Shown here: piece after piece, positions 177 through 5,462 of the stretch
Numbering within the stretch: the stretch's first letter is position 1
Layout of the letters: every line of letters starts with the position of its first letter
From: Nitrososphaeraceae archaeon
GTDB lineage: Archaea; Thermoproteota; Nitrososphaeria; Nitrososphaerales; Nitrososphaeraceae
Length of the DNA: 5,481 nucleotides
Reading direction: 5' to 3'
Assembly (NCBI GenBank): GCA_025922735.1
Contig: JAICHI010000091.1
Span: 1-5,481, forward strand
Notes under the pieces: model-generated
Seen by the model: only the letters and a program-made list of their open reading frames with translations
Databases searched by the model: none
What the model was told of the DNA's origin: nothing
Made by a program: the position numbers and the translations under genes

Positions 177-293
177 TGGCGTTACTAGTCGGTTTTGTCC
201 TACAATTATCAAAAAAGAGCTCAAAGTTAATGCCGTAGTTACCTCGTAGATAAAAATGGACTGGGTGGGAGTGGAACCCACGATGTCATTATA
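177..293 (-). repeat. Dispersed repeat copy A (tRNA 3' end plus conserved downstream tail)
   Basis: Read on the minus strand, this copy consists of a tRNA-like T arm and acceptor 3' strand (ending ACCCAGTCCA), a T-rich run, and then about 80 bp of tail. The same tail, in the same order and orientation, follows the tRNA-like ends at copies C (4078-4184) and D (5304-5411). Shared landmarks on the plus strand are TTTGTCC (194-200), AGCTCAA, CCGTAGTT, GATAAAAATGGAC and GGGTGGGAG. Copies differ by scattered substitutions and small indels, so they are old. It could be an attachment-site remnant or a tRNA-derived mobile repeat. Confidence 0.75.
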
Positions 294-336
294 AGGGTTC
301 AATTTTTCGCATACAACCATGAATTGTTGGCTGAGT
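257..336 (-). pseudogene. Decayed tRNA-like sequence A
   Basis: On the minus strand the 3' portion has a T stem GTGGG, T loop TTCCACT, T stem CCCAC, acceptor strand CCAGTCC and discriminator A, followed by TTTTT as after a real tRNA gene. Upstream there is a weak D-arm-like stretch (CTCAGCC, then GGTTGTATGCG), but no 5' acceptor strand able to pair with CCAGTCC, and no clean anticodon stem. It is therefore not a functional tRNA as it stands. The amino-acid identity of the parent cannot be assigned. Confidence 0.5.
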
Positions 337-337
337 T

Positions 338-352
338 TTAAAAATTTTTTTG
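338..352 (-). terminator. Possible oligo-T terminator after the regulator gene
   Basis: On the minus strand, 23-37 nt after the regulator stop codon, there is a TTTTT run (340-344 on the plus strand) next to an A run. Archaeal RNA polymerase often terminates at oligo-T alone. The site is short, so the call is weak. Confidence 0.25.
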
Positions 353-374
353 AGAAGACGAAATTTCAATCTTT

Positions 375-1151
375 CTAGATGCGCACCTTTTTCCCCGCCT
401 TGTTCCAGTGAAATTCAAATAGGTCCTGACACCACATGCGAAATACCGGATCACTACTCCCAAAACCACTGTTAAAGTCAAGCTTTCCCGTAATATCGGG
501 GAATGTCAATCCTGCTATCTTTTCATTCAGAGATATGCCTGCATTAATGTCATTAGGATCTTCCATCAAATGATATTCAATTCTACCCTTATGGGTTCCA
601 GCGGATGCACGGAGCCTTGTCCAGTCGATGCTGCTGCCAGCAGGAATAATTACTCTCCATGTCACAGTGGTGCTGCTCTCAAGCTTTCCACTTCCAGTGA
701 CATATTCCTCCCCGCCTAGAGGATGATCTGCCATCAACCAGATGTAATCTTCTGCGTCTTTTACAACTTGTTGTGTATGTGCTAGAATCGAGCCTACTCG
801 CCCAGCAAATCCCGATTCTCGTAGCTCTCCGATGCGCTCTATGAATTCTAGGGGAAGAGAAGATATATCGTGGGATAAGAAGTACTCTCTGTTTTGGACA
901 AGAAATCTAATTGACGGTAGAAGATTCACGATGATCTTGCCAAAAGCAGTCAGACCAAAGAACCCCTCAGAATCCTTCTCTATGAGCTTTGCATTACGGA
1001 GACGCATCAAGTGCTTGGAAGTTTCCTGGGGCGTGGCTGATAGCTTGGCAGTAAGCTGGCTCAACCTGCGTTTTTCGATTGCTATTTCAGAAAGCAGTGT
1101 CAGCCTGTCAACGCTAGCAAGAATGAAGAGAAGCTCTGCCAGATGTTCCAA
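375..1151 (-). CDS. Winged-helix transcriptional regulator with FilR1-like domain
   Basis: This encodes 258 residues. Residues about 5-75 read as an ArsR-like winged helix: LLFILASVDRLTLLSEI, then a recognition-helix region SATPQETSKHLMRLRNAKLIEK and a wing up to GLTAFGK. The remainder, from about residue 78 (LLPSIRFLVQNREYFLSHDISSLPLEF is split here as LLPSIRFLVQ and NREYFLSHDISSLPLEF), matches the pattern of the middle domain of FilR1 and related archaeal regulators (formerly DUF1724), expected to bind a small ligand. The length fits that family. The start is TTG at 1151, directly after an in-frame TAG (1152-1154). The next Met is residue 49, inside the DNA-binding domain, so TTG is the only sensible start. 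A TATA-like box 25-30 nt upstream and no ribosome binding site suggest a leaderless mRNA. It is divergent from the ferritin-like/2TM/monooxygenase-like block, which it may control. The true ligand and targets are unknown. Confidence 0.88.
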   Translation of the reverse strand: MEHLAELLFILASVDRLTLLSEIAIEKRRLSQLTAKLSATPQETSKHLMRLRNAKLIEKDSEGFFGLTAFGKIIVNLLPSIRFLVQNREYFLSHDISSLPLEFIERIGELRESGFAGRVGSILAHTQQVVKDAEDYIWLMADHPLGGEEYVTGSGKLESSTTVTWRVIIPAGSSIDWTRLRASAGTHKGRIEYHLMEDPNDINAGISLNEKIAGLTFPDITGKLDFNSGFGSSDPVFRMWCQDLFEFHWNKAGKKVRI

Positions 1152-1175
1152 CTAGATGTCATCAATGTGTCGGTT

Positions 1176-1185
1176 GATATTTAAC
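1176..1185 (-). promoter_or_regulatory. TATA-like box for the regulator gene
   Basis: The minus strand reads GTTAAATATC, a good archaeal TATA element centred about 29 nt before the TTG start at 1151. The spacing places transcription start at or within a few bases of the start codon. A copy of the CCGTTA(A/G) motif (1181-1187) overlaps the box, so a protein binding there could block transcription (autoregulation, inferred). Confidence 0.5.
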
Positions 1186-1260
1186 GGTCTCGTTGAAGAG
1201 GCTTGATCTACCACGACATCGTATGTTAATGCATGGAAAATAAGAACTCAAATGGTGATG

Positions 1261-1294
1261 CCGTTAGGTCACCTAAAAGCAAACGGGCTAACGG
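1261..1294 (+). promoter_or_regulatory. Inverted repeat CCGTTAG...CTAACGG, candidate operator
   Basis: CCGTTAG at 1261-1267 is mirrored by CTAACGG at 1288-1294, with 20 bases between the arms, 30 bases before the ferritin-like gene. The spacer contains CCTAAAAGC (1272-1280), the best TATA-like sequence for the + strand operon. The same core occurs at 1181-1187 in the regulator promoter and at 1866-1872 at the ferritin/2TM junction. The 12-mer GCTAACGGTCAA is identical at 1287-1298 and 1865-1876. Winged-helix regulators bind such paired sites, so this is a plausible operator; binding is inferred. Confidence 0.45.
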
Positions 1295-1323
1295 TCAACC
1301 TTCTGTGGGAGTGAAGCATTAGG

Positions 1324-1869
1324 ATGGGAAGTGCTGGAAATTCCTTAATCAGAGGGATAGACATACAGGAAATAATCGATACCCTTGACAGCTTTCACGC
1401 ACAGTCGTGGGTGGTAGTGCATTTCTCCCTGGCACTGAAGAACAGGCTGGAGGGACAGGCTGCTTTCTTGCTGTCAAGAGAACTAGAAGACAAAGCTCAG
1501 GAGAGTACGAAGCATGCCAAAAAACTTGCTGAACGCATTGCAGAACTTGGAGGAACTGAAACAGGCGATCCGACAGAGTTTGTCATGCTGTCTCCATTGA
1601 AGCGTTTTTCCATGCCAAGTAGTACCTCAGATGTCAAAGTAATTCTCTCCTACATTCTCGAGCAAGAGCAGGCAATCATTAGTAAATATGGAGACTTTAT
1701 GATTAAGATTAGAGAGAAGGATGATCTTACCTATCATCTGCTCCGTGAAATCCTGGAAGACGAGATAAGACGAGAAAGCGAAATAGAGGCTATTATCAAT
1801 TCGAGCAGCAGGGACCGCGAGTCGAACGAGATGCAAAAGACCCAAGAGCAGTTGAATCTGCAGCGCTAA
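1324..1869 (+). CDS. Ferritin-like (Dps/bacterioferritin-type fold) protein with altered metal ligands
   Basis: This encodes 181 residues, mostly helical, in the order of a four-helix ferritin-like bundle: helix A about 13-43, helix B about 47-77 ending in the family-typical HAKKLAERIAELGG, a loop with TGDP, helix C about 102-130 (ILEQEQAIISKY), helix D about 132-158 (LLREILEDEIRRESEIEAII), then a charged Ser/Arg/Gln tail. Ferritin-like proteins of this kind usually oxidise and store iron or protect DNA. The metal ligands look eroded: the first ExxH reads S61..H64 and the second reads E147..R150. The helix-A carboxylate position reads AQSW, where relatives usually have a Glu. Enzyme activity is therefore doubtful. 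The start is ATG 1324, the only start after the in-frame TGA at 1312; GGAGTGA (1308-1314) is a possible ribosome binding site. It is the first gene of a three-gene block. Confidence 0.75.
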   Translation: MGSAGNSLIRGIDIQEIIDTLDSFHAQSWVVVHFSLALKNRLEGQAAFLLSRELEDKAQESTKHAKKLAERIAELGGTETGDPTEFVMLSPLKRFSMPSSTSDVKVILSYILEQEQAIISKYGDFMIKIREKDDLTYHLLREILEDEIRRESEIEAIINSSSRDRESNEMQKTQEQLNLQR

Positions 1870-1880
1870 CGGTCAAGAAC

Positions 1881-2201
1881 ATGGTGAGTAGAATAACAAT
1901 GTCATCGAATGTGACGCTTGAACGGTACAAAGAGGCATATCGAGATATGATCGTAAGAAGAGAAAGGAAAGCCTTCACCATACACGCTATAGCATATGCG
2001 ATCGGCAATTCCATTCTAATTGCAATCAATTTGCTATTCGTTCCTCAGTTCTTATGGTTCGCGTTTCCAGTGGTCGGATGGGGCGCAGGTCTCGCGATCC
2101 ATTATTATCTTGGAGTTCATATGGCTCCACGACGTATCGGAAGAGATGAAACGAGAGCAGAATACATTGCAAGAGAAGGTCTAGGTGCTTCGCTTGCCTG
2201 A
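1881..2201 (+). CDS. Small two-helix membrane protein (2TM domain)
   Basis: This encodes 106 residues and matches the 2TM-domain pattern: a basic amphipathic lead (YKEAYRDMIVRRERKAF, residues about 16-32), TM1 about 31-53 (HAIAYAIGNSILIAINLLF), a short turn VPQ, TM2 about 57-77 containing FPVVGWGAGLAIHYY, and a charged cytoplasmic tail (RRIGRDETRAEYIARE). In this family the domain often stands alone or is fused to histidine kinases or DNA-binding domains. Its own role is unclear. It begins 11 bases after the ferritin-like stop codon, so the two are very likely cotranscribed. ATG 1881 has no ribosome binding site. ATG 1899 (residue 7) has GGTGA at 1883-1887 a suitable distance upstream and may be the true start, giving 100 residues. 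The CCGTTAG motif at 1866-1872 (minus orientation) lies just before it. Confidence 0.82.
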   Translation: MVSRITMSSNVTLERYKEAYRDMIVRRERKAFTIHAIAYAIGNSILIAINLLFVPQFLWFAFPVVGWGAGLAIHYYLGVHMAPRRIGRDETRAEYIAREGLGASLA

Positions 2202-2239
2202 CATAAGTTTTTTAGCGAATCTCGGCATAGTTGATCGAA

Positions 2240-2641
2240 ATGCAAAACCATCTTGACTCTGATTCCCAAACTCGGGAAAATTATACTCATGCTGCTACTT
2301 TCCTGCCGCTAAAGGGTTGGCGCTACATGATTCCATTCCAATTGATGACATCAAAAGTGCTAAAGCAGGCAAAGCAAAGCGACGGGATGGTGGATTATGC
2401 AGTAAAGGCTGATTTTCCAAAGAAGCACTTCTGGACACTTTCAATTTGGAAGGATCCGAATTCATTGAGACAGTTTGTGATGGCAGAACCTCATTTCACG
2501 GCTATGAAGAAATTTGAAGAATGGGCTGGGGATGGATCTGCATTTGCAGATTGGACTAGCTCCAGCAGTTCAATTGACTGGGAAGAAGCAATGAGAAGGC
2601 TTCAGAACCCAACCTTCTTTTACAATAAAAGAAAAACGTAG
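2240..2641 (+). CDS. Dimeric alpha/beta-barrel protein, antibiotic-monooxygenase-like (DUF3291/ABM superfamily type)
   Basis: This encodes 133 residues. The order of elements fits a ferredoxin-like ABM fold: beta strand around 18-34 (THAATFLPLKGWRYMIPF), helix about 36-46, strand with YAVKADFPKKHFWTLSIWKD (52-71), helix SLRQFVMAEPHFTAMKKFEEW (75-95) with the conserved-looking His85, then a C-terminal helix EEAMRRLQ. Small proteins of this group include heme-degrading and quinol monooxygenases and many of unknown substrate; none can be specified here. TTG 2231 in the same frame would add three residues. ATG 2240 was preferred because the T-rich box at 2207-2214 lies about 27 nt upstream, as expected for a leaderless start. 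The gap of 38 bases from the 2TM gene also allows cotranscription. Confidence 0.75.
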   Translation: MQNHLDSDSQTRENYTHAATFLPLKGWRYMIPFQLMTSKVLKQAKQSDGMVDYAVKADFPKKHFWTLSIWKDPNSLRQFVMAEPHFTAMKKFEEWAGDGSAFADWTSSSSSIDWEEAMRRLQNPTFFYNKRKT

Positions 2642-2704
2642 GCAATTGAAAACGAATGATGTGTCCAAATCTTGCGCATGTAGAGTACTACTAATTGTTA
2701 AAAG

Positions 2705-2822
2705 TGGACCGGGTGGGAGTTGAACCTACAACCTCAGCCAGCTTAGATTGATCTTTTTATCTCATACCAAACGGGCACCTATGGAAGAAGCATAACTGTA
2801 CTGCTCAAATCCCACCCGCGAG
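2705..2822 (-). pseudogene. tRNA-like element B with inverted 3'-end arms
   Basis: The minus strand from about 2770 to 2705 reads GTTTGGTATGAGAT (D-arm-like), AAAAGATCA, AAGCTGGCTGAGGTTGTAGG, TTCAACTCCCACC, CGGTCCA, then a T-containing run. It aligns with element C at 4211-4280. The T stem has one A-C mismatch and no 5' acceptor strand is found, so it is not a working tRNA. At the other end, on the plus strand, CTGCTCAAATCCCACCCGCG (2801-2820) resembles the same tRNA 3' end in opposite orientation. The whole therefore forms an imperfect inverted repeat of about 118 bp. Unlike A, C and D it lacks the conserved 80-bp tail. Confidence 0.5.
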
Positions 2823-3007
2823 AAGAATAGTAGGGTTTGGTATTAGTTGTTTGTCAAAAAGTGAAAATATAAAACAAGTATAACGAGCAACAACATCAAC
2901 CATACCGCTGAGTGATATAGCAAACCATAAGCTTTTTGCAAACATAACAGCTTTGGTGTTGTTGTTATGCATCATACCCAAATAGTACGCGCTACTAACA
3001 TGCAATC
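2823..3007. other. Intergenic stretch with no supported gene
   Basis: The plus strand is full of stop codons. The minus strand carries an open frame of 66 codons (ATG at 3005) with a hydrophobic middle, but no recognisable family, no promoter-like box and an unusual composition. AT-rich stretches such as AAAATATAAAAC near 2864-2875 could act as promoter elements, but no gene follows them at the right distance. Confidence 0.4.
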
Positions 3008-3091
3008 ATGGGAAAGATTAAGAAAAGGAAAAAAAGCTCAACTAAAAAGAGCATGAATGCAAAATCAAGTTACCGAAGAAGGTCAGCTTAG
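3008..3091 (+). CDS. Possible 27-residue strongly basic microprotein
   Basis: ATG 3008 to TAG 3089-3091 gives 27 residues, of which about half are Lys or Arg (MGKIKKRKKSSTKKS at the start, SYRRRSA at the end). Such composition suggests binding to nucleic acid if it is made, and small basic proteins are common in archaea. There is no ribosome binding site; AAATAGTA near 2980-2987 lies about 25 nt upstream and could be a weak TATA box for a leaderless message. A small hairpin with a T run follows at 3108-3135. Chance AT-rich sequence (AAA/AAG codons) is the main alternative. Confidence 0.3.
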   Translation: MGKIKKRKKSSTKKSMNAKSSYRRRSA

Positions 3092-3107
3092 AATATTTGC
3101 ATATTTT

Positions 3108-3135
3108 AGATGTTGTCAACAATTACACATCTTTT
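3108..3135 (+). terminator. Hairpin plus T run between convergent genes
   Basis: AGATGT (3108-3113) pairs perfectly with ACATCT (3127-3132), and the 3' arm runs into TTTT on the plus strand. It sits between the basic 27-residue ORF (+) and the end of the PRC-barrel-like gene (-), a natural place for a terminator. The stem is short, so the call is tentative. Confidence 0.3.
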
Positions 3136-3139
3136 GAAC

Positions 3140-3412
3140 TTACAGGTTCTTCTCTTCTTCTGTCAATTTATCCATCGGCTCGCCTGTTGGCAGTGGCGCA
3201 TCCCTATATACTCTATACTTCAATATCGCAGGAAAGTCCATTCCAACTATAATGTTTCTGCCGGCTGCCACTATCTCTGATTTTGGTTTATCAAATCGAT
3301 AGTCGCAGTGTCCAAACACTACAATTTTATCATCTGTTTCTCGTACGACATGTCCCACATGAGGAGAATCAAGCGCCTTCACTTCCTTGTTGATAGATTG
3401 TCCTGATGTCAT
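3140..3412 (-). CDS. Small PRC-barrel/DUF2171-like protein
   Basis: This encodes 90 residues from ATG 3412. The core VKALDSPHVGHVVRETDDKI-VVFG followed by RFDKPKSEIVAAG-RNIIVGMDF has the layout of a PRC-barrel-type small beta protein: a Gly-His-Val turn where the family has GKV, a strand of hydrophobic residues, then a Pro-Lys-Ser-Glu-Ile segment, then a valine/isoleucine strand. It ends in a charged tail with DAPLPTGEPMDKLTEEE. Such proteins are thought to bind partners or RNA, or to have stress roles; no specific function can be given. The frame stays open to a TTG at 3433, which would add seven residues. ATG was chosen because it fits the conserved domain start and is the stronger codon. 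Neither start has a clear ribosome binding site. Confidence 0.72.
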   Translation of the reverse strand: MTSGQSINKEVKALDSPHVGHVVRETDDKIVVFGHCDYRFDKPKSEIVAAGRNIIVGMDFPAILKYRVYRDAPLPTGEPMDKLTEEEKNL

Positions 3413-3572
3413 GATGAGTCGAAGTAAGCTCAATCATCTAATCCAACCCACTGTTTTTCAGGTGTAAAATGAGTCAGCAAAAACACCAGAACCATTAATA
3501 GTGTAGGGAATGTGTCATTATCAAGAAGAGAGTATACTATATGCCAATAAATGCAAAAGATAAGTCATCCCG

Positions 3573-3764
3573 GTGCTGACTCCTTACCCCACATGCGGGG
3601 CTACAATGGACTTGAAACGTTGGAAGTATTTTACAAGCAGGCATATTAGCGATAATGGAAAATTATGTTATTGTAATAATCCAATACGTCCTCCTGATGA
3701 ATGGGAACGAAAACAGAGAGTATTGTTGCCATACAGCTTTTTGCAGAATAATCGCAATGCATGA
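3573..3764 (+). pseudogene. Remnant of a small zinc-ribbon-like gene, probably decaying
   Basis: The open frame from GTG 3573 gives 63 residues: YPTCGATMDLKRWKYF near the start, HISDNGKLCYCNNPIRPPDEW in two pieces (HISDNGKLCYC and NNPIRPPDEW), then a basic tail. PTCG followed about 23 residues later by CYC looks like a zinc ribbon whose first knuckle should be CPTCG. Here the first Cys codon position is TAC (Tyr), one transition from TGC. A better start, ATG 3541 (MPINAKDKSSRC, then TGA at 3577), lies in another frame, as if a one-base frameshift had separated the N-terminus. TATACTATA at 3533-3541 is a possible promoter for the GTG start. It could instead be a genuine short gene with a different metal site. 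Confidence 0.45.
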
Positions 3765-3788
3765 GTGGTAGTAGAGAGACAAGCAATA

Positions 3789-3816
3789 GGTTAAACCTGC
3801 AACTCCGCAGCAGACC
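3789..3816 (-). repeat. Weak match to the tRNA-like T-arm region
   Basis: GTTAAACCTGCAACTCCGC (3790-3808) resembles GTTGAACCTACAACCTCAGC at 2720-2739 in element B, in the same orientation. The acceptor part is absent. It may be a further, older fragment of the same tRNA-derived family, or a chance similarity. Confidence 0.2.
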
Positions 3817-3835
3817 ATGAAAAAGAAAATAGGGA

Positions 3836-3847
3836 TAAGATATATTT
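3836..3847 (+). promoter_or_regulatory. TATA-like box before the 42-residue charged ORF
   Basis: AAGATATATTTC is a strong archaeal TATA-like sequence centred about 30 nt before TTG 3872, the spacing expected for a leaderless transcript. Confidence 0.35.
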
Positions 3848-3871
3848 CTCATATACAAACGAAATATCTCA

Positions 3872-4000
3872 TTGAAGCAAGAGGAGGAGAAGGAGCAACT
3901 TCGAGTAACGAGTACAGCAACACCTGCGGAAGACAAAGAAGAAGAAGAAGCGAAGGATGATAAGAAGAAGAAGAAAAAAGAGAGGGCAACTACCAAGTGA
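3872..4000 (+). CDS. Possible 42-residue highly charged microprotein
   Basis: TTG 3872 to TGA 3998-4000 gives a protein with blocks of opposite charge: KQEEEKEQLR, a TSTATPAEDK linker, EEEEAKDD, then six lysines and ERATTK. The blocks could form a polyampholyte or nucleic-acid-contacting tail. A TATA-like box about 30 nt upstream supports a leaderless start at TTG. A second forward frame (ATG 3818, to TGA near 3958) overlaps it and encodes a less regular sequence. The purine-rich GAA/AAG run (3930-3980) could also be simple-sequence expansion rather than coding, so confidence is modest. No family is recognised. Confidence 0.35.
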   Translation: MKQEEEKEQLRVTSTATPAEDKEEEEAKDDKKKKKKERATTK

Positions 4001-4077
4001 TACGAATACGAGACGATACTTCAAAAATAGTCTATCCTAAGAATTACCGTGGTGATGTTTTTTCAGGTCTTACCATC

Positions 4078-4184
4078 TGGCATTGTTGGTAGGTTTTGTC
4101 CGACAATGACCGAAAACAAGCTCAATTCAATATCGTAGTTCTATAACAAGAAGAAGAAATGGACTGGGTGGGAGTTGAACAGTT
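4078..4184 (-). repeat. Dispersed repeat copy C
   Basis: This is the same unit as copies A (177-293) and D (5304-5411): TGGCATT, TTTGTCC (4095-4101), AGCTCAATTCAATA, CGTAGTT, a purine-rich linker and then the reverse complement of a tRNA 3' end (TGGACTGGGTGGGAGTTGAA, 4160-4179). The T-arm part stops after GAAC, where copies A and D continue into CCA. It abuts element C in inverted orientation. Confidence 0.75.
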
Positions 4185-4280
4185 AGGTTCTTTTTCAACA
4201 GCTCTGCACTTTGGATAGGAGGTTAAAAGATCAGCCTGAAAAGCTGGCTGAGGTCGTGGGTTCCACTCCCACCCGGTCCA
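4160..4280. repeat. Inverted repeat with tRNA 3' ends at both tips
   Basis: The left arm 4160-4180 and right arm 4256-4280 are near-perfect reverse complements (TGGACTGGGTGGGAG against CTCCCACCCGGTCCA, with one T-G wobble). The two arms enclose about 75 bases. A single-stranded copy would fold into a hairpin whose tips look like tRNA acceptor/T-arm sequences. Element B has the same architecture in weaker form, and element D keeps a trace of it (GGTTCCACAATC at 5443-5454). Confidence 0.6.
4201..4280 (+). pseudogene. tRNA-like sequence C, best-preserved member
   Basis: A perfect T arm is present (GTGGG 4256-4260, TTCCACT 4261-4267, CCCAC 4268-4272), followed by acceptor 3' strand CCGGTCC, A at 4280 and a T-rich run (TCTTTTTCTT). 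AGGTC sits in the variable-loop position. TCAGC-CTGAAAA-GCTGG (4231-4247) can form an anticodon arm, which would read GAA (Phe), but this leaves an unusual 8-nt variable region. An alternative CAGCC/GGCTG stem has a 9-nt loop. AGCTC, TTTGGATAGGAGG resembles a D arm. The only pairing partner for the acceptor is GGACTGG at 4161-4167, which belongs to the inverted copy and is too far away. Probably a defective tRNA; an intron-bearing tRNA was considered but not supported. Confidence 0.45.
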
Positions 4281-4375
4281 TCTTTTTCTTTGTATTTCTG
4301 TAGCCTATACCATCAAGCAAAGTTTGAGAAAGCCAGCCATGTGAAATAAAACAAGACAAGTATGGCAGCTTTTTG

Positions 4376-4396
4376 ACAGAAAGGAAAAATAGAAAA
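4376..4396 (-). terminator. T-rich terminator after the cupredoxin gene
   Basis: On the minus strand, beginning about 9 nt after the cupredoxin stop codon, the sequence is CCTTTTCTATTTTTCCTTTC, a pyrimidine tract with T4 and T5 runs. This is typical of archaeal intrinsic termination. Confidence 0.45.
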
Positions 4397-4404
4397 GGCG
4401 GAGG

Positions 4405-4974
4405 TCAGCTCACACTGACTGTTCCGACCATGTTTGGATGGAGTATACAGAAGTATGGGAACTCGCCTGCTTCTGTAAAGGTATACTCAAATGTTCCTGC
4501 TGGAGGCATTATAGGAGAGTCAAACAGCCCACTAGGCGTTGCGTTTTCGCCTGAATTGACTGTGTGTGGTTGTGCGTCATCATTTGTCCATGTTACTGTA
4601 GTGCCTACGCTAACTTGAATTGGATTTGGTGAGAATGCATCAGTAGTCAGGGTTGAAGAACCGGGGACTATGGAAACGCTGGTAGATGCATTACCACCAC
4701 TAGCGCCAGTGGCAGTGGCATTAGTTGCATTACCTGTTCCTGTCATGGTTGCATTAGTTGCATTACCTGTTCCTGTCATGGTTGCATTAGTTGCATTACC
4801 TGTTCCTGTCATGGTTGCATTAGTTGCATTACCGCTACCTTGTCCTGTAACTCCTTGCGCGGTTGCATAATGTGGTGTACTTATAGCTATAGATGACGCC
4901 ACGCTTAATGAAAGCAGAATAAGCGCCAAGGTTGCAAGTACAGCTTTATTGTTGTCGTCGTTTTTTGATTGCAT
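4405..4974 (-). CDS. Secreted plastocyanin/azurin-like cupredoxin with a repeated Asn-Ala-Thr stalk
   Basis: This encodes 189 residues. Residues 1-40 form a Sec-type signal: a charged start (MQSKNDDNNK), a hydrophobic core (ALILLSLSVASSIAI) and a likely cleavage near ATAQG (37-41). Residues 45-97 form a low-complexity stalk made of repeated NATNATMTGTG units with nine N-X-T/S sequons, so N-glycosylation outside the cell is likely. Residues about 98-189 are a type-1 blue-copper domain: VSVGTTVTWTNDDAQPHTV supplies His137, and YFCILHPNM supplies Cys176, His179 and Met182, the complete copper ligand set. Thaumarchaea use many such proteins as electron carriers in place of cytochromes c, probably linked to ammonia oxidation or respiration. 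The start is ATG 4974, with a TATA-like box about 27 nt upstream (leaderless). The gene is monocistronic, flanked by repeat copies C and D. Confidence 0.92.
   Translation of the reverse strand: MQSKNDDNNKAVLATLALILLSLSVASSIAISTPHYATAQGVTGQGSGNATNATMTGTGNATNATMTGTGNATNATMTGTGNATNATATGASGGNASTSVSIVPGSSTLTTDAFSPNPIQVSVGTTVTWTNDDAQPHTVNSGENATPSGLFDSPIMPPAGTFEYTFTEAGEFPYFCILHPNMVGTVSVS
4718..4833 (-). repeat. 33-bp in-frame tandem repeat in the cupredoxin gene
   Basis: Three complete 33-bp units (4718-4750, 4751-4783, 4784-4816) are identical in sequence, and a fourth is partial (4817-4833). Each encodes NATNATMTGTG. Because 33 is divisible by three, gain or loss of units keeps the frame. The lack of any synonymous difference points to recent expansion by slippage or recombination. 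Confidence 0.95.
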
Positions 4975-4997
4975 AAGAAATTAAATAAGAATCGTGG

Positions 4998-5005
4998 CTT
5001 TTAAC
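4998..5005 (-). promoter_or_regulatory. TATA-like box for the cupredoxin gene
   Basis: The minus strand reads GTTAAAAG, centred about 27 nt before ATG 4974, which predicts transcription starting at the start codon. A TATATATA run at 5031-5038 is too far upstream to serve the same start. Confidence 0.45.
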
Positions 5006-5038
5006 AGTTGTAGTCTTTAGTTAAGGTATGTATATATA

Positions 5039-5278
5039 TTAATGAATCTCCACATGCTGAAAATAAACCCAAGTAAAATCTAATGTATGGTTTGTTAACA
5101 TTTGCTTGCGACTCTTTATTTTACTGTATATCCACCATCCTACACCAACAATTATTGCCAAAATGATTATCCCTATAAAGAGAGGTGCAAGTAGTTCTAT
5201 GAGAATACTATTATGGCAACTATAACTAGTAGAGCAATTATTCCAATAATTATAGAGGATTTATCAACGTTTGATTGT
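5039..5278 (-). pseudogene. Remnants of small membrane-protein gene(s), frame-broken
   Basis: Two hydrophobic segments lie in tandem in different minus-strand frames. The first (about 5278-5198) reads QSNVDKSSIIIGIIALLVIV plus AIIVFS and stops at TAG. The second runs on to TAA at 5039-5041 and contains LLAPLFIGIIILAIIVGVGW, then WIYSKIKSRKQ and a tail ending HVEIH. The sequences overlap at the frame change. Neither has an ATG, GTG or TTG before its membrane segment; a TTG lies only inside the second. Both follow the positive-inside pattern (KIKSRK after the helix). This fits either one broken two-helix protein or two degenerated single-helix proteins. No family is recognised. Confidence 0.45.
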
Positions 5279-5303
5279 TAGAGATAAATTTTGTTCCAGA
5301 CAA

Positions 5304-5411
5304 GGGCATTACTGCTATATTTGTCCTCCAACCACTAAAAAAAGCTCAATTCAATACCGTAGTTCCATAGCAGATAAAAATGGACAGGGTGGGAGTGGAA
5401 CCCATGACCCC
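5304..5411 (-). repeat. Dispersed repeat copy D
   Basis: This is the third full copy of the tail-plus-tRNA-end unit. TTTGTCC (5320-5326), AAAGCTCAATTCAATACCGTAG (here given as AAAGCTCAATTCAA then TACCGTAG), GCAGATAAAAATGGAC and GGGTGGGAGTGGAACCCA match copy A and copy C in the same order and orientation. The CGTAGTTCCATAGCAGATAAAA part is closest to copy A. Confidence 0.75.
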
Positions 5412-5462
5412 AGCTAGCTTTCTAAGCTCTGCGTCTGAATTCTTGGTTCCACAATCTTACTG
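5380..5462 (-). pseudogene. Decayed tRNA-like sequence D
   Basis: The minus strand ends GGGGTC, ATGGG, TTCCACT, CCCAC, CCTGTCC, A and then TTTTT, the order of a tRNA variable loop, T arm, acceptor strand and terminator. The T stem has one mismatch (A against C). Upstream, GCAGAGCTTAGAAAGCTAGCTG aligns with CCTGAAAAGCTGGCTG of element C. No 5' acceptor strand complementary to CCTGTCC exists, so this is not a working tRNA. On the plus strand, GGTTCCACAATC near 5443-5454 looks like a worn inverted copy of the T arm. Confidence 0.45.

Follow-up and report, generated by a model that had tools for sequence, protein, structure and literature searches.

Integrons line up small gene cassettes in a directional array, and their site is partly palindromic. 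Archaeal integrons exist as a system for comparison (available part of PMC9668308), and archaeal tyrosine recombinases and tRNA fragments are dealt with in the accessible sections of PMC8371274 and PMC9897764, respectively. Here, we describe repeats in a stretch of 5,481 nucleotides from a Nitrososphaeraceae archaeon (assembly GCA_025922735.1, contig JAICHI010000091.1; in the following 'the window') and in related genomes. The repeats consist of the 3' end of tRNA-Ala(GGC) and a shared arm. They likely represent junctions of site-specific recombination (attachment or att junctions) in an array that has grown behind that tRNA from small gene cassettes in tandem.

Arrays of this kind are known from bacteria. 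In the case of the ssrA islands of Dehalococcoides, the available part of PMC3146451 describes tandem islands whose boundaries are direct repeats derived from a structural RNA gene (its 3' end), all within at most 100 kb downstream. According to the same part, an 84-bp region around each repeat could be aligned, the cargo is accessory, 15 of the 31 islands have no integration module and the other 16 carry a serine recombinase module (DsiB). These islands use transfer-messenger RNA (tmRNA), a 20-bp repeat and DsiB, whereas the array described here uses tRNA-Ala and units of ~0.55-3.1 kb, with no recombinase found in the array. Additive flexible genomic islands (fGI) with tRNA direct repeats are described in the accessible text on 'Ca. 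Methylopumilus' (fGI-2, PMC10872708) and 'Ca. Actinomarinales' (fGI1, PMC7771536). There, the hosts are bacterial and the repeat is the tRNA part alone. Unlike these islands, the archaeal array conserves an arm of ~65 bp and, in some units, an inverted second copy of the tRNA-derived core with its own arm.

Integrated elements of Thaumarchaeota are closer with regard to the host. The available portion of PMC6563490 gives tRNA 3' ends as the main targets and mentions arrays arising by re-use of the site, so that thaumarchaeal hosts and the tRNA 3' end as site are common to both systems. The elements in that portion are multigene integrated mobile genetic elements with short att sites (median 17 bp), and no mini-cassette array is described in it.

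Like an integron, the present array is directional, is made of small cassettes and has a partly palindromic site; unlike an integron, its site comes from a tRNA gene and no match to the tyrosine recombinase family PF00589 occurs in the genome of the window. An integron integrase is thus missing there by this family model, and the class of clusters of attC sites lacking integron-integrases (CALIN) has none either, so this class stays compatible. As in tandem islands anchored on a tRNA or tmRNA, an intact RNA gene stands at one end with co-oriented partial 3' copies, relatives have the unoccupied site and a distal att end lies at the ancestral flank; a site-specific recombinase in some units, also typical of such islands, was not found, either as a PF00589 match in this draft, which is 84% complete, or among 40 chosen proteins of the array contigs. 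Searches of the open-licence literature turned up no account of such an array in Nitrososphaera. Next to the Dehalococcoides ssrA islands and the additive islands with tRNA repeats, the archaeal array, which is miniature and partly palindromic and in which no recombinase was found, appears to be a novel version of a known kind.

The repeat and its parent tRNA gene

The sequence-only reading had proposed three copies of a repeat in the window. All three, A (177-283), C (4078-4184) and D (5304-5414), proved real and have a single orientation, with pairwise identities of 74-82% over 86-105 bp. When copy A was compared to its own genome by BLAST, it matched D at E 1.3e-17 and C at E 1.4e-10, far beyond chance. 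The count of three was incomplete: a further core (copy B, minus strand) and an inverted core beside copy C (plus strand) also lie in the window (Table 1).

The core measures ~34 bp, in the best copies GCTGAGGTCGTGGGTTCAAATCCCACCCGGTCCA (GCTGAGGTC...GGTCCA), and corresponds to the part of tRNA-Ala(GGC) that begins on the 3' side of the anticodon stem and reaches to the gene end. A tail of ~65 bp, here called Y, follows directly after the core. Over 24 copies, the mean pairwise identity was 85% for the cores, 62% for the tails and 69% for core plus tail. To describe the repeat, a sequence model of core plus Y (R1) was built from 24 copies.

An intact parent, which had been one of the points to be looked for, was found: tRNA-Ala(GGC) at positions 446-519 of contig C10 in the genome of the window (G000), with the same tail behind it. 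It is the one tRNA that ARAGORN called in the first thirteen contigs scanned. In all ten other genomes of the genus in which the gene was located, the tail is missing behind it, with G017 visible for 23 bases only. In the relatives, the tRNA can be related to a flank gene that lies on contig C21 in G000. The distance is at most 22 bases in G004 and G016 (translated comparison). In G011, G013 and G015 the gene follows directly by eye, with computed matches lying further in. The distance is ~300 bases in G008 and ~570 in G010, a weak match lies at 1.2 kb in G007, and the gene was not found within 1.5 kb of the tRNA in G014. In G000 (C21) and in its sister species G003 (C58), a decayed tRNA 3' end precedes the flank gene at matching position and orientation, and C10 resembles the relatives on the 5' side of the tRNA. 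Because several relatives join tRNA and flank, and G000 and G003 hold the flank beside a decayed tRNA end, an old island appears to part the tRNA (attL) from its ancestral flank (attR).

The idea of att scars is therefore supported by the parent tRNA with its tail, by the tail-free tRNA in relatives and by the old att end at the ancestral flank. It had been objected that att cores stop at the tRNA end. The tail is most plausibly an arm of the mobile element's own att site, and this would answer the objection, as such an arm follows every core in a tandem array, that of the tRNA included; the flank behind the tRNA end would then be copied because it belongs to a mobile element.

Three things are read directly, namely how the sequences relate to each other, the unoccupied site and the breakpoints given below. 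Beyond these, we infer the following steps. An incoming DNA circle would carry an upstream arm X, the core and Y, and would recombine at a core that belongs either to the tRNA or to a cassette already in place. Tandem integration should then produce three kinds of junction. The tRNA-core-Y junction, expected behind the tRNA itself, is seen on C10. X-core-Y, expected at junctions inside the array, is seen in roughly half of the copies with a tail, and X-core-flank, expected at the far end, is seen only as a decayed core without a recognizable X. The reaction would depend on a recombinase that works in trans, none having been found in the array.

Composite form of the site

Upstream of some junctions, arm X has three parts: an inverted repeat of acceptor and T arm, a middle that carries a D-arm-like motif and, farther out than the inverted repeat, a second arm ('tail2'). 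At least one of these three X motifs was found upstream of 16 of 33 tailed copies, versus 15 of 400 random stretches. Loose matches of the tail2 and Yend motifs include many by chance and were counted only beside cores. Copy C, together with its inverted core, forms a full composite unit of ~265 bp (about 4078-4343), and the full order of arm, inverted core, middle, core and arm was seen on C91, which is the window itself, and on C159, C169 and C186. Copy B consists of arm X and core, without Y. A truncated unit with arm X and a partial core cut in the T loop was noticed on contig C117 of G000 (420-580), a contig with a SnoaL gene; it is not counted by R1.

The distal edge of Y was compared to the inverted anticodon arm of tRNA-Ala. 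A resemblance at p 0.04 or below was obtained for 11 of 25 copies (200 shuffles each, uncorrected), most strongly in G003 C149 with 22 of 23 bases; one of the 11 matches (C169) sits away from the expected edge, just past Y. In the other 14 copies the resemblance did not reach this p value. The complete site would thus be composite and partly palindromic, with arm X, inverted core, tRNA-like middle, core and an arm Y ending in an inverted anticodon arm.

Of the 10 copies in which the D-arm motif was found, 9 have it oriented like Y, and copy C alone has it the other way round. A second inverted middle was noticed by eye in the unit at C169 2540. Because the orientation of the motif flips in these two units, the comparison suggests that inversion takes place between the inverted cores of a unit. 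The inverted core edges would account for an occasional flip of the middle.

The tRNA-like features might also be explained if the copies formed a family of RNAs that resemble tRNAs and are transcribed. Nearly all aligned copies retain the T arm, the acceptor end and a run rich in T, and one middle has a sub-threshold tRNA match in Rfam: at 4213-4280, the sole match of the window, it scores 27.7 bits and lies under the gathering score of 29. Against such RNAs, 3 predicted pairs showed 0 compensatory changes over 24 copies, ARAGORN called the parent but no tRNA among the other copies, and the 5' half is missing or variable. The repeated RNA unit considered in the sequence-only reading consequently finds little support, since core plus tail have no covarying fold and only the parent is called as a tRNA, and we regard it as very improbable. 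A general foldback or hairpin site was also considered and rejected: copy C folds strongly as single-stranded DNA (z -3.1) and the C159 unit does not (z -0.84).

Clustering and orientation of the copies

The R1 model detected 13 full copies in G000, located on six contigs (C91, C186, C169, C159, C138 and C10) that together span 36 kb of the 1.65-Mb draft. Apart from the copy at the tRNA locus, the remaining 12 form 7 neighbour pairs within 4 kb, which none of 100,000 random placements matched (uniform placement over the genome, contig breaks ignored). The family is thus clustered and not dispersed as first described. Furthermore, on the eight multi-copy contigs of G000 and G003, the 23 copies that retain some or all of Y are without exception co-oriented within their contigs (2^-15); this count omits tail-less cores, that is, core B and the inverted partners in the composite units on C91, C169, C186, C159 and G003 C149. 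The 16 core-to-core spacings, B included, range from 550 to 3080 bp with a median of 1.36 kb; when B is left out, the distance from A to C is 3.9 kb. We suppose that the six contigs are all part of one island.

Several copies on one contig could also result from segmental duplication of a chromosomal block with the tRNA end, which the sequence-only reading had named as the case that would overturn it, with only three copies inside larger duplicated blocks. With 13 copies and unrelated DNA between them, the genome does not look like this. Outside the repeats, the six contigs have only four matches in common, each 53-182 bp long and one due to the tandem repeat inside the cupredoxin gene, and the blocks between copies encode unrelated genes. 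Segmental duplication is therefore given next to no chance.

Comparison with relatives

Among 70 genomes of the family, four have R1 matches at E 1e-9, namely G000 (13), G003 (17), G009 (1) and G072 (1), and copy D as BLAST query gave matches in 2 of 41 genomes. One pattern searched in genome contigs gave no site match, and records near the genome of the window may be missing from the collections searched. G072, which belongs to another genus, holds a full site copy (C252, match 1592-1681) that is 84-87% identical to the best matches here; this copy could represent either cross-genus transfer or a misplaced contig. Beside it lies an apparent GMC-type oxidoreductase gene (open reading frame read by eye).

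Two comparisons place a breakpoint at the site. In the first, positions 1791-2742 of the window and G009 C118 share 88% identity up to the 5' edge of core B, beyond which the sequences differ. In the second, G003 C2 5955-6051 is 83% identical to G000 C41, the match begins at the distal edge of Y and nothing is common on the other side; C41 itself has no core or tail. As judged from these alignments, both breakpoints favour recombination at the site.

On a larger scale, G000 and G003 agree at 91-94% identity over two pieces of backbone. The array contigs were not colinear with the sister genome in 3 of 3 cases tested (window, C159 and G003 C2; one comparison of the window with G003 scored 16 of 44 G003 candidates). 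Besides the repeats and the short C41 match, their matches in the sister genome are single genes or gene parts located elsewhere, at 65-89% identity. Similarly, the genes of the window gave single-gene matches or none in 19-20-kb stretches of three complete genomes.

These comparisons also bear on a tRNA-derived, non-autonomous mobile repeat of ~100-260 bp that transposes itself, similar to a miniature inverted-repeat transposable element or a short interspersed element, and lies between genes by chance. Consistent with such a repeat, a full unit of defined structure recurs on four contigs, copies differ by decay as reflected by the identity of core plus tail, and a truncated copy exists on C117. 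However, copies are clustered on 36 kb, the tailed ones are uniform in orientation and not scattered or mixed, and the parent tRNA itself bears the tail. Moreover, the G009 C118 and C2/C41 comparisons match the relative on one side of the copy and are unrelated on the other. No target duplication was noticed in the junction alignments, in which no systematic search was made, and no locus with both flanks shared was found. A mobile repeat of this kind, which had been offered as an alternative to att scars, is consequently less likely given the clustered, co-oriented tailed copies and the single shared flank in the two cleanest comparisons. We consider it improbable.

Genes between the copies and search for a recombinase

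To describe the cargo, Pfam scans were carried out on 40 chosen proteins of the array contigs, a selection from all open reading frames. A match at E 0.01 or below was obtained for 27 of them, some under the curated cut-offs, and 13 matched nothing. The matches comprise ferritin-like, 2TM, DUF3291, cupredoxin, methyltransferase, TerC, inositol monophosphatase, histidine kinase, response regulator, SnoaL, cupin, amino-acid permease, alpha/beta hydrolase, MFS, Rieske and others. Among the 40, no recombinase and no evident viral or plasmid family was detected.

An alternative that has to be weighed at this point is the ordinary accretion of a few full-size integrative elements at tRNA-Ala, in which integrases and most genes have decayed, short remnants are left between the att sites and no cassette system exists. 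Archaeal elements are known to integrate in tandem at a single site (available parts of PMC6563490 and PMC8371274). In addition, the array is old, as seen from tails that have diverged more than cores and from the decay of the distal att end in two species. On the other hand, the short core spacings fit poorly with full-size elements, and so do the 27 of 40 proteins with Pfam matches that include neither a recombinase nor an evident viral or plasmid family, the other 13 matching nothing. Accretion shares the att junctions with the cassette array and the odds of the two overlap; taken by itself, we hold accretion to be unlikely, yet the more credible of the alternatives.

Several observations weigh against the cassette array. 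The first group concerns the recombinase. PF00589 has no match in G000, where it may lie in the missing part of the 84%-complete draft. The family occurs in 11 of 18 genomes of the genus, and the single one in G003 lies on a contig without a listed R1 copy. A serine resolvase (PF00239) occurs once each in G000 (C136 602-1261) and G003 (C268), in both cases off the array contigs. The second group concerns the site. No X feature was found at 17 of the 33 tailed copies, and 2 of the 16 others rely on the weakest motif alone. No site or attP record was obtained with two patterns searched in viral contigs or with one 191-base query run against plasmids and phages. Each contig of G000 has at most 3 full R1 copies, and the draft breaks between the array contigs of the supposed island.

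The third group comes from relatives. At its other end, the G009 C118 match stops inside the ferritin gene, where there is no core. A SnoaL-like gene is common to G003 C37 and G009 C98 with att copies in opposite orientation, and therefore gene and site do not travel as a fixed unit. G003 C68 and G000 C117 share another SnoaL gene, with breaks ~120-190 bp off the cores and not at them. Both comparisons show that gene and site make up no rigid pair. Finally, ~4 kb of C21 beside the decayed att end are shared by G003 at 87-91% without an R1 copy; part of the island therefore does not turn over.

From its presence alone, the PF00239 resolvase is a possible candidate for a recombinase acting in trans. 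On C136, it adjoins genes that resemble bioA and bioD (named by eye). In 25 integrase loci of the genus scanned for the core motif, no tRNA-Ala core was found near an integrase.

Features of the window

The window is the entire contig C91 of G000, a draft of 1.65 Mb in 334 contigs that is 84% complete; three complete genomes of the same genus have 2,833,868, 2,527,938 and 2,954,373 bases. The repeat copies and genes of the window are collected in Table 1.

Table 1. Repeat copies, their parts and cargo genes in the window, in order of position.
Feature	Position	Strand	Remarks
Copy A, distal tail edge	177..192	-	no significant match to inverted tRNA anticodon arm, p ~0.5
Copy A	193..283	-	core = tRNA-Ala 3' end 257-283, tail Y 193-256; R1 84.7 bits; BLAST against own genome
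Winged-helix regulator (HVO_A0261_N/ArsR-like), cargo gene	375..1151	-	below Pfam cut-offs
Ferritin-like protein, cargo gene	1324..1869	+	Pfam PF00210, 7.3e-17
2TM-domain protein, cargo gene	1881..2201	+	PF13239, 5.3e-13
DUF3291/monooxygenase-like protein, cargo gene	2231..2641	+	PF11695, 5.5e-6; common to G009 as far as core B
Copy B core, without tail Y	2705..2743	-	G009 C118 homology ends at its 5' edge
Copy B upstream arm X	2744..2817	-	inverted acceptor/T-arm repeat at 2799-2817
Copy C	4094..4184	-	core 4160-4184, tail Y 4094-4159; R1 74.5 bits
Copy C middle	4185..4246	.	carries a D-arm-like motif (4209) and runs opposite to the tail, the less common orientation of the two
Copy C second, inverted core	4247..4280	+	sequence comparison
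Copy C second arm (tail2)	4281..4343	+	common to C159, C169, C186
Cupredoxin (plastocyanin-like), cargo gene	4405..4974	-	PF00127, 1.8e-9; 33-bp internal repeats
Copy D	5304..5414	-	core 5381-5414, tail Y 5304-5380; R1 81.6 bits

The gene of the winged-helix regulator has a 72% DNA match at ~0.44 Mb of G015, the tRNA-Ala of which lies at 1.87 Mb. In the cupredoxin gene, the 33-bp tandem repeats are located at 4682-4840 and are built of GNATNATMTGT units. A stretch of 182 bp with a small basic open frame (2957-3138) is 98% identical to positions 3686-3867 at the end of contig C169; this could be a second short repeat or an assembly branch. On C10, a malic enzyme match was obtained on the tRNA side. 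SnoaL-like (NTF2-fold) genes were repeatedly seen as cargo on several array contigs of two species (L044, L097, L099, L100 and L041), where the match of L099 is under the Pfam cut-off and L100 was assigned via its similarity to L099.

Implications

In its most far-reaching form, which we put forward tentatively as a possibility, the cassette array would be an integron-like system of gene capture born from a tRNA gene in ammonia-oxidizing archaea, in which the composite, partly palindromic site lets a recombinase acting in trans, with none in the array itself, add and invert small cassettes and pass them between species and even genera.

If the repeats are att junctions of a cassette array, accessory genes such as those of cupredoxins, SnoaL-like proteins, transporters and ferritin-like proteins would be gained via a directional array at one tRNA gene. 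Core plus arm would then serve as a searchable signature of gene capture in this lineage, and the array would account for the fragmentation of the region into small contigs in draft genomes. Altogether, this would be an archaeal counterpart to integrons, grown from a tRNA attachment site.

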